Source: an uncultured Flavobacteriales bacterium
GTDB taxonomy: Bacteria; Bacteroidota; Bacteroidia; Flavobacteriales_E; Vicingaceae
Reading direction: 5' to 3'
DNA length: 64,000 nucleotides
Assembly (NCBI GenBank): GCA_905479995.1
Contig: CAJQON010000017.1
Coordinates: forward strand, 62,001 to 126,000
Part shown: positions 15,456 to 45,839 of the stretch, piece by piece
How the letters are laid out: every line of letters starts with the position of its first letter
Position numbering within the stretch: position 1 is the first letter of the stretch
Translations under genes and position numbers: made by a program
The notes under the pieces: model-generated
The model's database searches: none
What the model was told of the DNA's origin: nothing
Seen by the model: the letters and a program-made list of their open reading frames with translations, nothing else

Positions 15456-15463
15456 ATTTAACT

Positions 15464-15490
15464 GTAACTTTTTAAACCATCAGTTCGTCC
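15464..15490 (+). promoter_or_regulatory. ECF-type promoter GTAAC-N17-CGTCC (copy 1, before sigma gene)
   Basis: GTAAC (15464-15468) and CGTCC (15486-15490) with 17 bases between form a classic ECF sigma promoter (AAC-type -35, CGTC -10). It ends 22 bases before the sigma gene start. An identically spaced copy stands before the GIN-barrel gene at 17035, which argues for autoregulation by the sigma factor encoded here. Confidence 0.75.
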
Positions 15491-15512
15491 CATTATTAAA
15501 CAGTAGCGTTAA

Positions 15513-15998
15513 ATGACGGTAAAGGAGTATAACCAAAGTGTAGATTCGTATTCGGATAATCTTTTTCGGTTTGTGTTAAAAAACATAAAAGATGAAGAGA
15601 AGGCGAAAGATATCGTTCAGGATACTTACGTTAAATTTTGGGAAAAGAGAGACAATGTTGACGTTAACAAAATCAAATCTTATTTATTTACAACGGCTTA
15701 TCATACCCTAATAGATGTAGTGAGAAGAGATAAGAAGCAAGCTTCGTTTGATGTTGTTAAAGAAGAAAACTTAACTACAAATGATGGTTATACGGATTTA
15801 CAAGAAGTTTTATTAGCAGCCATTGAGCAATTACCTGAAGATCAAAAAGCAGTAATACTTTTAAGAGATTATGAAGGGTACGCTTATAATGAAATTGCAG
15901 AAATAACCGGTATGACAGAATCTAAGGTGAAAGTGTATATTTTTAGAGGAAGAAAATTTTTAAAAAACTATTTAGGAAGTGTAGAGGCAGTATTATGA
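15513..15998 (+). CDS. ECF RNA polymerase sigma factor
   Basis: A 161-residue sigma-70 factor with only regions 2 and 4. Region 2 reads LFRFVLKNIKDEEKAKDIVQDTYVKFWEKRD and then KSYLFTTAYHTLIDVVRRDKK. Region 4 reads LPEDQKAVILLRDYEGYAYNEIAEITGMTESKVKVYIFRGRKFLKNYL. The stop overlaps the ATG of the anti-sigma gene by four bases. A GTAAC-N17-CGTCC promoter precedes it and a second copy precedes the gene after the anti-sigma gene, so this factor probably drives both its own operon and the GIN-barrel gene. The inducing signal is unknown; envelope stress is a reasonable guess. Confidence 0.93.
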   Translation: MTVKEYNQSVDSYSDNLFRFVLKNIKDEEKAKDIVQDTYVKFWEKRDNVDVNKIKSYLFTTAYHTLIDVVRRDKKQASFDVVKEENLTTNDGYTDLQEVLLAAIEQLPEDQKAVILLRDYEGYAYNEIAEITGMTESKVKVYIFRGRKFLKNYLGSVEAVL

Positions 15999-17032
15999 AT
16001 TTGATTACAAAAAATAACTACGAGGCATTTTTGCTAGATTATGTTGAGGGGAATTTATCTCCTGAACATACTGCAGAACTCATGTTGTTTTTTGAAAATA
16101 ATCCTAGTTTAAAAGAAGATTTAGATGATTTTGAGATCTTAACCTTAACGCCACCAGCATTGGAAATGGATAAGGAAGAACTAAAGATAGAAGAGAGTAT
16201 TGTTTCTTTAGCAACTTTTGAAGATGCTATTATTGCAGAAATAGAAGACGAAAATACTGCAGAGCAATCGGCAGCATTGTTCTTGTTTTTAAAAGAGAAT
16301 CCGAGTAAAAAACACGAATTAGTTGCCTATCAGAAAACGATATTGGACGCTCCAGCTATCGTTTTTACAGATAAAAAAGGCCTTAAACAAAAAGATACAA
16401 AAGTGATACCATTGTATTGGTGGTATTCATCTGCTGCTGCAATTATTTTGGCGGTGTTTTTATTAAAAGGGATTTATAGTAATAATGAGGTGAGTTCGCC
16501 ATTCGTTGCTAATGAAATTGAAAATACCAAAACTATTAAAGAAGAGCAACAGGTTAATAAAGCAATTTTAATTGCTGTTGAAGAGGAACAAGAGATAAAC
16601 GAAGAATTGGAAAAACCTGTTATTGATTTAGTAAAACAAACAACAGTAAATAAAGTTGCAGTAAAAAATGGAGTTCAAAAGAATGCGGAGGAGGAGATAG
16701 ACGAAGTGATTTTTGCCAATAAGCAAATTAAAGAGGTTGAATTAAAGGATACTATAGAAATGAATAAGCTACTTCCTCAAAAAGTAGTTCCAGTTAAAGA
16801 AGAGGTGTTGTATGCCAATAATGTAAAAATAGTTTATGAAGATGAGCCAGTAGGGAAAAATGAGGCAGTTGATAAGCCTGGAAAGAAACTTACCAAATTT
16901 GATGCCGTTAGAGCGGCTATAAAACAACAGGTTAGAGAAAAATTTTTAAACAAAAAAAACACAGAAGTGGTACTGGCTTATAGCGCTGAATCGCCTATCT
17001 CTATTCGAAAAAGCAAGAAAAATAAAAAATAG
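15995..17032 (+). CDS. membrane-bound anti-sigma factor with duplicated N-terminal module
   Basis: A 345-residue single-pass protein. The cytoplasmic part contains the same module twice: residues about 9-64 (YEAFLLDYVEGNLSPEHTAE) and about 72-126 (FEDAIIAEIEDENTAEQSAA), each followed by FFENNPSLK / FLKENPSKK and a closing PALEMDK / PAIVFTDKK. One membrane helix follows (WWYSSAAAIILAVFLLKGIY, about residues 143-162), then a charged Glu/Lys-rich periplasmic part with no recognised fold and a very basic C-terminus. The four-base overlap with the ECF gene and the topology support an anti-sigma role, although there is no classic zinc HxxxCxxC site. Confidence 0.8.
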   Translation: MNLITKNNYEAFLLDYVEGNLSPEHTAELMLFFENNPSLKEDLDDFEILTLTPPALEMDKEELKIEESIVSLATFEDAIIAEIEDENTAEQSAALFLFLKENPSKKHELVAYQKTILDAPAIVFTDKKGLKQKDTKVIPLYWWYSSAAAIILAVFLLKGIYSNNEVSSPFVANEIENTKTIKEEQQVNKAILIAVEEEQEINEELEKPVIDLVKQTTVNKVAVKNGVQKNAEEEIDEVIFANKQIKEVELKDTIEMNKLLPQKVVPVKEEVLYANNVKIVYEDEPVGKNEAVDKPGKKLTKFDAVRAAIKQQVREKFLNKKNTEVVLAYSAESPISIRKSKKNKK

Positions 17033-17034
17033 CT

Positions 17035-17061
17035 GTAACAAAATTAAGTAGTTGTCCGTCC
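17035..17061 (+). promoter_or_regulatory. ECF-type promoter GTAAC-N17-CGTCC (copy 2, before GIN-barrel gene)
   Basis: GTAAC (17035-17039) and CGTCC (17057-17061) are again exactly 17 bases apart and share the flanking CT before GTAAC with copy 1. The box is 50 bases before the ATG at 17111, giving a leader of about 40 bases. It links the GIN-barrel gene to the adjacent sigma factor. Confidence 0.75.
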
Positions 17062-17110: not shown

Positions 17111-18673
17111 ATGAAAAAAATAGTTTCACTTCCATTAATGTTAATTCTGATAGTAAATTTAACTGCTCAAACTACGGTTAGGTCACTTGGAGAATTCACA
17201 ACGTTAAATTTAAAAAACACTTTAGAAGTTAGGTTGGTGCAAGGAGAAAAAAATGAAGCTTTGATTTCAGTACCAGGTTCTCCTGAAGACCAACTAGATC
17301 ATGTAATTACAGAGTTGGTAGGTGGTGAACTTACTATTTATACCGATGGGAAAATTAAATCTAGAGAGAATGCTGTAGTGGTTTTAACGTTTAAAAATCT
17401 AACTGAGATTAATCAAAGTGGTGCTTCTAGAATTAGTACTTTAAATAAGATTCGCACAGAAAAATTTAAAGTTGTTGGTAGTGGTGCAGTTCAAGCAGAT
17501 ATTAACATTGACGCCCAAACACTTGATATTCGCGCTTCTGGCGCAAGTGATATCAAATTAAAAGGTTCAGCAAATAAATTTAATCTAGAATTGAGTGGGT
17601 CTTCAGATTTAAAAGCGTCTGATTTTAAAGCAAAAAATGTGGTAATTGATGTTTCTGGAGCATCGGATGTAAAAGTATTTGCTTCAGAATCTATTTCAGG
17701 TCGAGCAAAAGGTGCTTCTCATATCAATGTGAAAGGTAATCCAATACATAGAGCAATTAACAGCTCTTCGAGTACCGATACCTATTACATTGGAAACGAT
17801 AATGTTTCCATTAATCTGGGGGAAACTGCGGTAAATGTGAATGATGAGCATGTCGATTTAAGTACTAAGAACAAAGAAGTTCATGTGCATGATGATACAA
17901 CAAGGGTTAAACTTGGAGGTACGTATATTACATTTATTGACGATTCTATACATGTTTATAAAAAGCCGAAAAAACGAAGAAACCATTGGGCAGGATTAGA
18001 TCTAGGTATAAATGGTTTTATGACCTCTGGAGGGAGTTTTGACTTAAGTAACCCAGCTCACTTTGAACAAACTAATCCGCAAAGTGTAACGCAGTTTATG
18101 GAGCTAAACTATAGCAAGTCATGGACTTTTAGTGTCAATTTTTTAGAGTTTTTTATTCCTATTAAAGAGCATCATTTTGGATTTGTTACAGGTTTAGGAA
18201 CCGAGTGGAATAACTATGAATTGAAACACAACGTGAGGTTAACTCCTTTTGGTGGGTCTGAGGTGTTTAGTAGCGCAAATGCATACGAAGAGCGCTATAC
18301 TTGGGGTGAAATAGATACGACACTTTCGTATTCTAAAAATAGATTTAAAACATGGTTTATTAATGCTCCTTTTTTATTGGAGTTAAATACTGGGCAAGAT
18401 AAAAGAAGGTCTTTCCATTTGTCAGCTGGAGCAATATTAGGATACAACCTGCAAACAAAAATGAAATACGTTTTTAATGAAAATGGAGATAAAAGAAAAG
18501 AAAAAGATAAAGACAGCTTTAATACCAATCCGTTTCGGGCAAGTTTAACTGCTCGTGTAGGTTACAGTTGGTTTACAGTATTTGCAACATATGCATTAAC
18601 ACCTTTGTTTGAAAATGGAAGAGGTCCAGAACTCTACCCCTTTACCGTTGGTGTTGCCCTATTAGGGTTTTAA
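17111..18673 (+). CDS. GIN-domain (DUF2807) protein fused to an outer-membrane barrel
   Basis: A 520-residue exported protein. The signal is MKKIVSLPLMLILIVNLTAQ; the frame opens ten codons earlier, but this Met gives a proper signal and follows the ECF promoter. Residues about 25-215 are a GIN/DUF2807 beta-helix with repeated Ser-Gly-Ala turns (INQSGASRIS, VVGSGAVQADI, IRASGASDIKL, LSGSSDLKAS, VSGASDVKVF, RAKGASHINV). A linker leads to a porin-like barrel (GLDLGINGFMTSGGSFDL, WTFSVNFLEFFIPIKEHHFGFVTGLGTEWNNY, ending TVGVALLGF). The head GIN domain is usually found alone, so the fusion with a barrel is notable. The role is unknown; probably an ECF-regulated envelope component. Confidence 0.8.
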   Translation: MKKIVSLPLMLILIVNLTAQTTVRSLGEFTTLNLKNTLEVRLVQGEKNEALISVPGSPEDQLDHVITELVGGELTIYTDGKIKSRENAVVVLTFKNLTEINQSGASRISTLNKIRTEKFKVVGSGAVQADINIDAQTLDIRASGASDIKLKGSANKFNLELSGSSDLKASDFKAKNVVIDVSGASDVKVFASESISGRAKGASHINVKGNPIHRAINSSSSTDTYYIGNDNVSINLGETAVNVNDEHVDLSTKNKEVHVHDDTTRVKLGGTYITFIDDSIHVYKKPKKRRNHWAGLDLGINGFMTSGGSFDLSNPAHFEQTNPQSVTQFMELNYSKSWTFSVNFLEFFIPIKEHHFGFVTGLGTEWNNYELKHNVRLTPFGGSEVFSSANAYEERYTWGEIDTTLSYSKNRFKTWFINAPFLLELNTGQDKRRSFHLSAGAILGYNLQTKMKYVFNENGDKRKEKDKDSFNTNPFRASLTARVGYSWFTVFATYALTPLFENGRGPELYPFTVGVALLGF

Positions 18674-18712: not shown

Positions 18713-18741
18713 AAAAAGCCCCACAAATTGTGGGGCTTTTA
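18713..18741. terminator. bidirectional terminator
   Basis: AAAAGCCCCACAA (18714-18726) pairs with TTGTGGGGCTTTT (18728-18740), flanked by A and T runs on both sides. It can end both the GIN-barrel gene and the convergent Spy-like gene. Confidence 0.85.
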
Positions 18742-44728: not shown

Positions 44729-45367
44729 TTATTGTCTTAACTCTTCCATATCTTTAAGGAGCTCATCAAGTTTTTTCATGATGCCACCATAAACAGCTTT
44801 AAGGTCGAGTCGGTATAAAGGTTTTGAAAAAATAGTAACTATGATTAGTAGTACAATTACCGAAGATAACCACACTATAGGTAAACCATGAAATAGGAGT
44901 GTATCTGGATTGTTCATTATTTTATGCAGGGCTTGTTGTCCATCTTCGGTTTCTAAAAAGCCAATAACCATAAAACTGAAATACAAAGGGTAGAATACCT
45001 GATAGAACTGGCCAAGTTTTGTGATAAATCCTTTTAAATAATTGTCAAAACTTTTTAGGTAAGCATAGCTGCTCGCGCTCCAGTCTATTTTATCAATTAA
45101 TTTCATGTTCTTTCTTGATATAATAGTAAGTGTCCCTAGAAGTATGCACATTCCAGTTCCAGCGAAATAAGCTCCCATAGAAACCCCAATCATTAGATGT
45201 GCCAGTGCCAAGCCATAAATATAAAAGTGATTGTACTTGAACATTCTTTTAAACTTATCTATAATGTGAATAGATTTTTGATTGTAAAGATTGTTAAGAC
45301 GAGGTACAACTAGGTCTTCTTGTCCTATAAATCCTGATTTCCATATTGTTTCAATTGATTTTTCCAT
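44729..45367 (-). CDS. four-helix membrane protein partner of ECF sigma factor
   Basis: A 212-residue membrane protein. The first 45 residues are soluble (GFIGQEDLVVPRLNNLYNQKSIHIIDKFKRM); membrane helices follow at about 46-63, 67-84, 124-140 and 162-184 (IVWLSSVIVLLIIVTIFS). The C-terminus is a soluble helical tail with Leu/Glu repeats (MKKLDELLKDMEELRQ). It overlaps the upstream ECF sigma gene by 17 bases, so the two are coupled, and it takes the position of an anti-sigma factor. It has no zinc-binding motif or known anti-sigma domain, so that role is inferred from position only. Confidence 0.7.
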   Translation of the reverse strand: MEKSIETIWKSGFIGQEDLVVPRLNNLYNQKSIHIIDKFKRMFKYNHFYIYGLALAHLMIGVSMGAYFAGTGMCILLGTLTIISRKNMKLIDKIDWSASSYAYLKSFDNYLKGFITKLGQFYQVFYPLYFSFMVIGFLETEDGQQALHKIMNNPDTLLFHGLPIVWLSSVIVLLIIVTIFSKPLYRLDLKAVYGGIMKKLDELLKDMEELRQ

Positions 45368-45839
45368 CTAATAATTTTTTTAAGCGTTCTTTAATTCGTT
45401 TAATTCTAACCCCAATGTTGTTGGGGTTGGTACCAATAATGTTAGCAATTTCTTCGTATGTTTTTTCTTCTAAATAAAGTAAGATAACAGCTCTGTCAAT
45501 TTCAGTAAGTTGTTTAATTGCAACATATAGTTGGTTAATGGATTCGTCTTCGAATACCTTACTTTCTTCACTTAATTCAGGTTGTTGGATTTCAGACTTT
45601 AATTTTTCTGAGGTTTTACTTTTTTTCAAAAGAGTTAAGCATACGTTTAAACTTAATCTATAGATCCAGGTCGACCATTCTGATTCTTGATTAAAGTTTT
45701 CTTTACTTTTCCATATTTGGAGGCAAACCTCCTGATAATAATCTTCAAAATCTTCTTGAGAGTTGGTATAGGCTCTGCAGATTTTGACAATTATACCAGC
45801 ATATGGTAAAATTTGAGCGTTATAGAAATCGATACTCAT
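45351..45839 (-). CDS. ECF RNA polymerase sigma factor
   Basis: A 162-residue sigma-70 factor with region 2 (QEDFEDYYQEVCLQIWKSKENFNQESEWSTWIYRLSLNVCLTLLKK) and region 4 (LTEIDRAVILLYLEEKTYEEIANIIGTNPNNIGVRIKRIKERLKKLL). The 17-base overlap with a 4-TM protein gene suggests regulation by that membrane protein. The upstream region contains TGTAAT on the minus strand (45885 to 45880), but no CGTC at the expected 17-base distance, so autoregulation is not shown here. Confidence 0.9.
   Translation of the reverse strand: MSIDFYNAQILPYAGIIVKICRAYTNSQEDFEDYYQEVCLQIWKSKENFNQESEWSTWIYRLSLNVCLTLLKKSKTSEKLKSEIQQPELSEESKVFEDESINQLYVAIKQLTEIDRAVILLYLEEKTYEEIANIIGTNPNNIGVRIKRIKERLKKLLDGKIN

Follow-up and report, generated by a model that had tools for sequence, protein, structure and literature searches.

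Two copies of one ECF-type promoter motif lie at a single locus, one ahead of an ECF sigma gene and the other ahead of a gene for a putative outer-membrane barrel, and this arrangement raises the question of whether the sigma factor controls both, whether other sigma factors read these sites, or whether the pair is a coincidence. In the window, that is, the whole 64 kb stretch of DNA that was analysed, the initial annotation had placed CTGTAAC-N17-CGTCC at 15462-15490 and 17033-17061, before the sigma gene and the GIN-barrel gene, and both copies are indeed present there on the + strand. The features of the locus are as follows.

15462..15490, + strand: predicted ECF-type promoter 1 (-35 GTAAC at 15464-15468, spacer 17, -10 CGTCC at 15486-15490), 5' of the sigma gene
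15513..15998, + strand: ECF sigma factor, 161 aa, whose sigma regions are limited to 2 and 4 (Pfam Sigma70_r2 and Sigma70_r4_2)
15995..17032, + strand: predicted anti-sigma factor, 345 aa, with two three-helix units, a membrane helix and a long tail predicted to be disordered
17033..17061, + strand: predicted ECF-type promoter 2 (-35 GTAAC at 17035-17039, spacer 17, -10 CGTCC at 17057-17061), 5' of the GIN-barrel gene, after the anti-sigma stop
17111..18673, + strand: GIN-barrel protein, 520 aa, with a signal-like N-terminal helix, a DUF2807 head (28-211) and an outer-membrane beta-barrel (about 296-518)
18714..18740, + strand: terminator-like hairpin, 3' of the GIN-barrel gene

Copy 1 (ctgtaac-tttttaaaccatcagtt-cgtcc) begins 7 nt past the ispE stop and 51 nt ahead of the sigma ATG at 15513, and copy 2 (ctgtaac-aaaattaagtagttgtc-cgtcc) begins immediately past the anti-sigma stop, 78 nt ahead of the GIN-barrel ATG at 17111. 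They are the sole matches to GTAAC-N15..19-CGTCC in the window; shuffling the window gave on average 0.12 matches, and two matches were reached in only 1 of 100 shuffles.

The 161-aa protein scores above the cut-off for both Sigma70_r2 and Sigma70_r4_2, and therefore has the two regions (2 and 4) that define an ECF sigma factor. It is 55-81% identical to its orthologues across Bacteroidota, and its gene carries a predicted promoter with an AAC-type -35 and a CGTC-type -10. The best named family for this protein is NCBIfam NF058625 (GFO_1088/PG0214), to which it matches with 124.8 bits, under the curated cut-off of 130 bits, so that we do not count it as a formal member. The window contains another ECF sigma gene, at 45363-45839 on the - strand (G000:C17:107363-107839).

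Conservation of the paired sites among relatives

The sigma factor served as query against sixty genomes (host and relatives), and 40 sigma loci were examined: a site is present 5' of the sigma gene in 35 of them, and a second site in 32. A single scan of genome contigs gave a further set of 80 named sigma loci, which come from Vicingaceae, other Flavobacteriales, Prolixibacteraceae, Marinilabiliaceae and other Bacteroidales; because some genomes of the relative set recur in it, the two sets cannot be treated as independent samples. In 76 of these 80 loci GTAAC-N16/17-CGT occurs at most 120 nt upstream of the sigma gene (opposite strand, 0). A second copy lies past the anti-sigma gene in 54 of the 70 named loci with enough sequence (opposite strand, 0), where its -35 element is found at a median of 7 nt beyond the anti-sigma stop, and is absent in the other 16. 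Over the 716 kb of the named loci, GTAAC-N16/17-CGTCnYA has 126 matches on the + strand versus 2 on the - strand. In both Flavobacteriales and Bacteroidales, the two sites keep their sequence, their spacing and their position beside the orthologues of the sigma gene. Cultured species whose loci have the pair of sites include Prolixibacter bellariivorans (L137), Alkaliflexus imshenetskii (L138) and Marinifilum caeruleilacunae (L159). In L069 (genome G018), in which an insertion of about 1 kb separates the anti-sigma and target genes, promoter 2 lies directly before the target.

The refined promoter consensus is cTGTAACwww-N13/14-CGTCnYA, with a spacer of 16 or 17 nt. The exact spacing of the two copies had been judged unlikely to arise by chance; conservation upholds a non-chance origin, but not a strict N17, as the spacer is either 16 or 17. 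Similarly, the CGTC of the proposed -10 element CGTCC is retained while its final C is a variable base, the conserved form being CGTCnYA. Within the family set, the two spacers of a locus tend to match (19 pairs 17/17, 8 pairs 16/16 and 5 mixed, out of 32 pairs uncorrected for kinship), and Prolixibacteraceae loci often have 16/17 spacers.

Predicted regulon and alternative readings of the sites

The motif had also been put forward as a means of finding the rest of the regulon by a genome scan. In its bare form it was rejected for this use, since GTAAC-N16..18-CGTCC has 9 matches in the 3.1 Mb genome versus 10 for a reversed control pattern, and a refined consensus is required. The reported pair are the only intergenic sites among these 9 matches: six of the remaining seven fall within open reading frames, and the seventh, on contig 46, is inside an opposite-strand frame of 798 codons that runs open as far as the edge of the stretch examined. 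The refined consensus did lead to a TonB-dependent receptor. A promoter sequence model was built from 69 sites, and 150 of 1833 host-genome candidates, taken by a first filter, were scored with it; among these 150, the best matches have 28.0 and 27.3 bits (the two reported sites) and 21.3 bits, and the next one has 12.9. Because the reported pair belongs to the training set of the model, only the third site is an independent find. This site and a sigma gene in its neighbourhood are as follows.

G000:C13:134617-134657, - strand: third site, on another contig (21.3 bits with the promoter model)
L209:2736-3326, - strand: divergent gene for an ECF sigma factor, 3' of the TonB-receptor operon bearing the third site

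The third site is 46 nt upstream of the gene for a TonB-dependent receptor of 788 aa, in which CarboxypepD_reg and TonB plug domains are present. This gene is followed by a lipoprotein-like gene and then by the divergent ECF gene, to which the third site could answer. The site is kept before 81-83% identical receptor orthologues in G006 and G008, hence in three sigma-bearing species including the host; in G010, a genome in which no orthologue of the sigma factor was detected, it is missing before a receptor orthologue of 74% identity. More generally, each of the 28 family genomes that have a sigma orthologue contains 1-5 tight-pattern sites (28/28), and none was found in the 4 family genomes at least 97% complete and devoid of a sigma orthologue. 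On these grounds the host regulon is predicted to comprise three promoters, two at the locus and one at the TonB-dependent receptor operon. The autoregulation of the sigma gene and the direct control of the GIN-barrel gene, both anticipated in the initial annotation, are supported as predictions by the conserved sites beside orthologous sigma genes.

In several members of the genus a tight-pattern site lies upstream of DUF5686-type proteins (L200, L205, L206, L197 and L204), and G010 has one such site despite no detected sigma orthologue; DUF5686 proteins were rejected as members of the host regulon, no relative of the protein being found in the host genome. In L207 and L208 (genomes G007 and G011), a tight-pattern site is located 66 nt ahead of an ABC transporter ATPase gene.

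The genome-wide count of the bare motif, about equal to that of the reversed control, is what would be expected if a genome rich in AT had produced the pair by chance. This explanation is refuted by the conservation of the sites in about 100 orthologous loci, and we give it practically no credence; it is this conservation among relatives, and not the count in the host genome, that rules chance out. Promoter 2 might also be unused, the GIN-barrel gene being read through from promoter 1 and the motif being kept for some other reason. Such read-through would fit with the lack of any terminator-like site found on the + strand between the anti-sigma and GIN-barrel genes and with the presence of one after the GIN-barrel gene, but it is highly improbable, given that in 54 of 70 loci the second site recurs at an equivalent position and shares the -35, the -10 and the spacing of promoter 1, and that it stays with the target past the inserted gene in L069.

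The sites could instead be genuine ECF promoters that several host ECF sigma factors read, in an overlapping network and not a private mini-regulon. Another sigma factor could read them because AAC and CGTC elements are common to many ECF sigma factors and because the ECF family model matches the host genome at 13 further places. Isolated tight-pattern sites are present in G007 and G010, two assemblies less than 90% complete in which no sigma orthologue was detected, and the promoters of Flavobacterium psychrophilum SM6 that have a CGT -10 may serve several ECF sigma factors (PMC9723704). However, just three high-scoring sites were found in the host genome (150 of 1833 candidates scored), sites in the family follow the presence of the sigma orthologue, and the seven class-level genomes that lack the sigma (G037-G043; 91-100% complete) have at most one tight-pattern site each. 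Such a network thus seems unlikely to us, if less so than read-through. We infer that the sigma factor of the locus is the one that reads these promoters, and the explanation that we hold to be very probable is an autoregulated ECF sigma/anti-sigma module in which promoter 2 drives an outer-membrane barrel and which includes a TonB-dependent receptor operon elsewhere in the genome.

The predicted anti-sigma factor and barrel target

The gene for the 345-aa protein starts before the sigma gene ends, the two sharing 4 nt. Alignment and an AlphaFold model both indicate that the N-terminal part of the protein comprises a pair of similar units, each about 45 residues long, with three helices per unit modelled mostly at high confidence. 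A helix at about 141-164 covers the most hydrophobic stretch of the protein and is a predicted membrane helix, and the C-terminal tail beyond it is long and mostly has a pLDDT below 50, indicative of disorder. Pfam and PDB sequence searches gave nothing credible, the protein belonging to no Pfam family, and Foldseek with the model gave no significant match (best E 3.2). With VIA-align, MucA(cyto) is the top structural match to the second unit, with a modest Z of 5.3 (rmsd 1.5 over 47 residues), the next unrelated row having a Z of 2.6. A zinc-binding class I anti-sigma domain was considered and rejected, since the sequence contains no cysteine and hence no Hx3Cx2C motif. The gene overlap and the MucA-like fold of the model suggest that this second protein is likely the cognate anti-sigma factor. 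Neither Pfam nor AlphaFold reveals a barrel in it; the barrel is encoded by the next gene.

This next gene, the predicted target, encodes a protein with the Pfam domains DUF2807 and OMP_b-brl_2 (mean pLDDT of the AlphaFold model, 83.6). OMP_b-brl_2 is present in 38 of 44 target proteins versus 15 of 44 for DUF2807, which argues that the constant part of the target is the outer-membrane barrel and that the GIN head is lineage-specific, as judged from domain content. The proposal that the GIN-barrel gene is a target stands as a prediction, with the barrel and not the GIN domain as the part that is constant. In L049:2578-4821 (genome G009), two tandem DUF2807 genes lie past promoter 2, the first encoding a head without a barrel and the second a head with a barrel. 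RNA structure between the anti-sigma and GIN-barrel genes is no more stable than in shuffled sequences. Within the body of literature searched, no paper was found that links 'head GIN domain' to 'sigma factor'.

We propose that the sigma factor would transcribe its own operon from promoter 1 and the outer-membrane beta-barrel gene from promoter 2, where the anti-sigma gene ends, and would also drive the TonB-dependent receptor operon elsewhere in the host genome. In the resting state the anti-sigma factor, anchored in the membrane, would use its cytoplasmic helical part to hold the sigma factor. An envelope signal, presumably arising at the outer membrane and probably relayed from there along the long periplasmic tail of the anti-sigma factor, would free the sigma factor, which would then direct polymerase to the refined consensus. 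The barrel target should rise more than the sigma/anti-sigma pair, because it has its own promoter and no terminator lies ahead of it.

Relation to known envelope stress systems

Bacteroidota have many ECF sigma factors, few of which have a known promoter or regulon. Here a promoter consensus is tied to one sigma family through about 100 loci, together with a predicted type of anti-sigma factor that every Pfam model misses, a constant outer-membrane target and a regulon that can be tested. The module resembles AlgU/MucA of Pseudomonas aeruginosa in that it would pair an envelope ECF sigma factor with a membrane anti-sigma factor, one modelled helical unit of which superposes on MucA(cyto); RpoE, held by the membrane anti-sigma factor RseA, is a further system of this kind. 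It differs from AlgU/MucA in that no sequence similarity was found, in having two helical units versus one, and in its disordered periplasmic tail. In a 2020 survey, only 6% of Bacteroidetes ECF sigma factors were linked to recognised class I anti-sigma domains (PMC7406223).

In Porphyromonas gingivalis, PG_0214 and the putative anti-sigma factor PG_0215 rise together (PMC10101095). Unlike the present locus, this NF058625 system is associated with PG_0216, a DUF4252 protein, and not with an outer-membrane barrel. In F. psychrophilum SM6, transcript starts were used to map ECF promoters whose -10 element is a CGT box, among them that of one sigma/anti-sigma operon; type IX secretion genes are among their targets, and the sigma factor responsible is not established (PMC9723704). 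The GIN head is a DUF2807 domain, as in Toastrack proteins (DUF2807/DUF4097/DUF2154), which are stress-signalling domains for which an intracellular placement was proposed (PMC11237479). In contrast with these, the DUF2807 head here has a signal-like helix before it and an outer-membrane barrel joined to it, and should therefore be extracytoplasmic.

A close parallel is with the Dma proteins of Bacteroides thetaiotaomicron, in which an anti-sigma domain, a membrane helix, a disordered tether and a barrel are joined in one chain, encoded beside ECF21 sigma factors (PMC13088901). Like Dma/Das, which are dual membrane-spanning anti-sigma systems, the present locus has a Bacteroidota ECF sigma factor beside a predicted anti-sigma factor with a candidate N-terminal anti-sigma unit, and the transmembrane helix and long disordered tether of Dma are both predicted in the 345-aa protein; a link to an outer-membrane barrel is also shared, and in Dma/Das the system's own operon is among the most induced genes (PMC13088901). 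The locus departs from Dma in encoding the barrel apart from the predicted anti-sigma factor, behind a second sigma-type promoter, and in the two helical units of the latter. Only a distant homologue joins these parts:

L083:4322-5989, - strand: fused anti-sigma homologue (genome G047), with an anti-sigma unit, membrane helix, tether and C-terminal PorP/SprF barrel in a single protein

Since tail and barrel form one chain in this homologue, as they do in Dma, we infer by analogy that the present locus may be the split counterpart of a Dma-like system, and we speculate that the tail of the anti-sigma factor contacts the barrel. Only tentatively, and with more doubt than confidence, would we extend this to an undescribed and widespread envelope surveillance in Bacteroidota, a split Dma in which a tail that crosses the periplasm docks on a separate barrel made under sigma control, closing a feedback loop over two membranes. 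Such a relationship might connect the module by descent with the Dma proteins, by which outer-membrane vesicles are controlled in Bacteroides.
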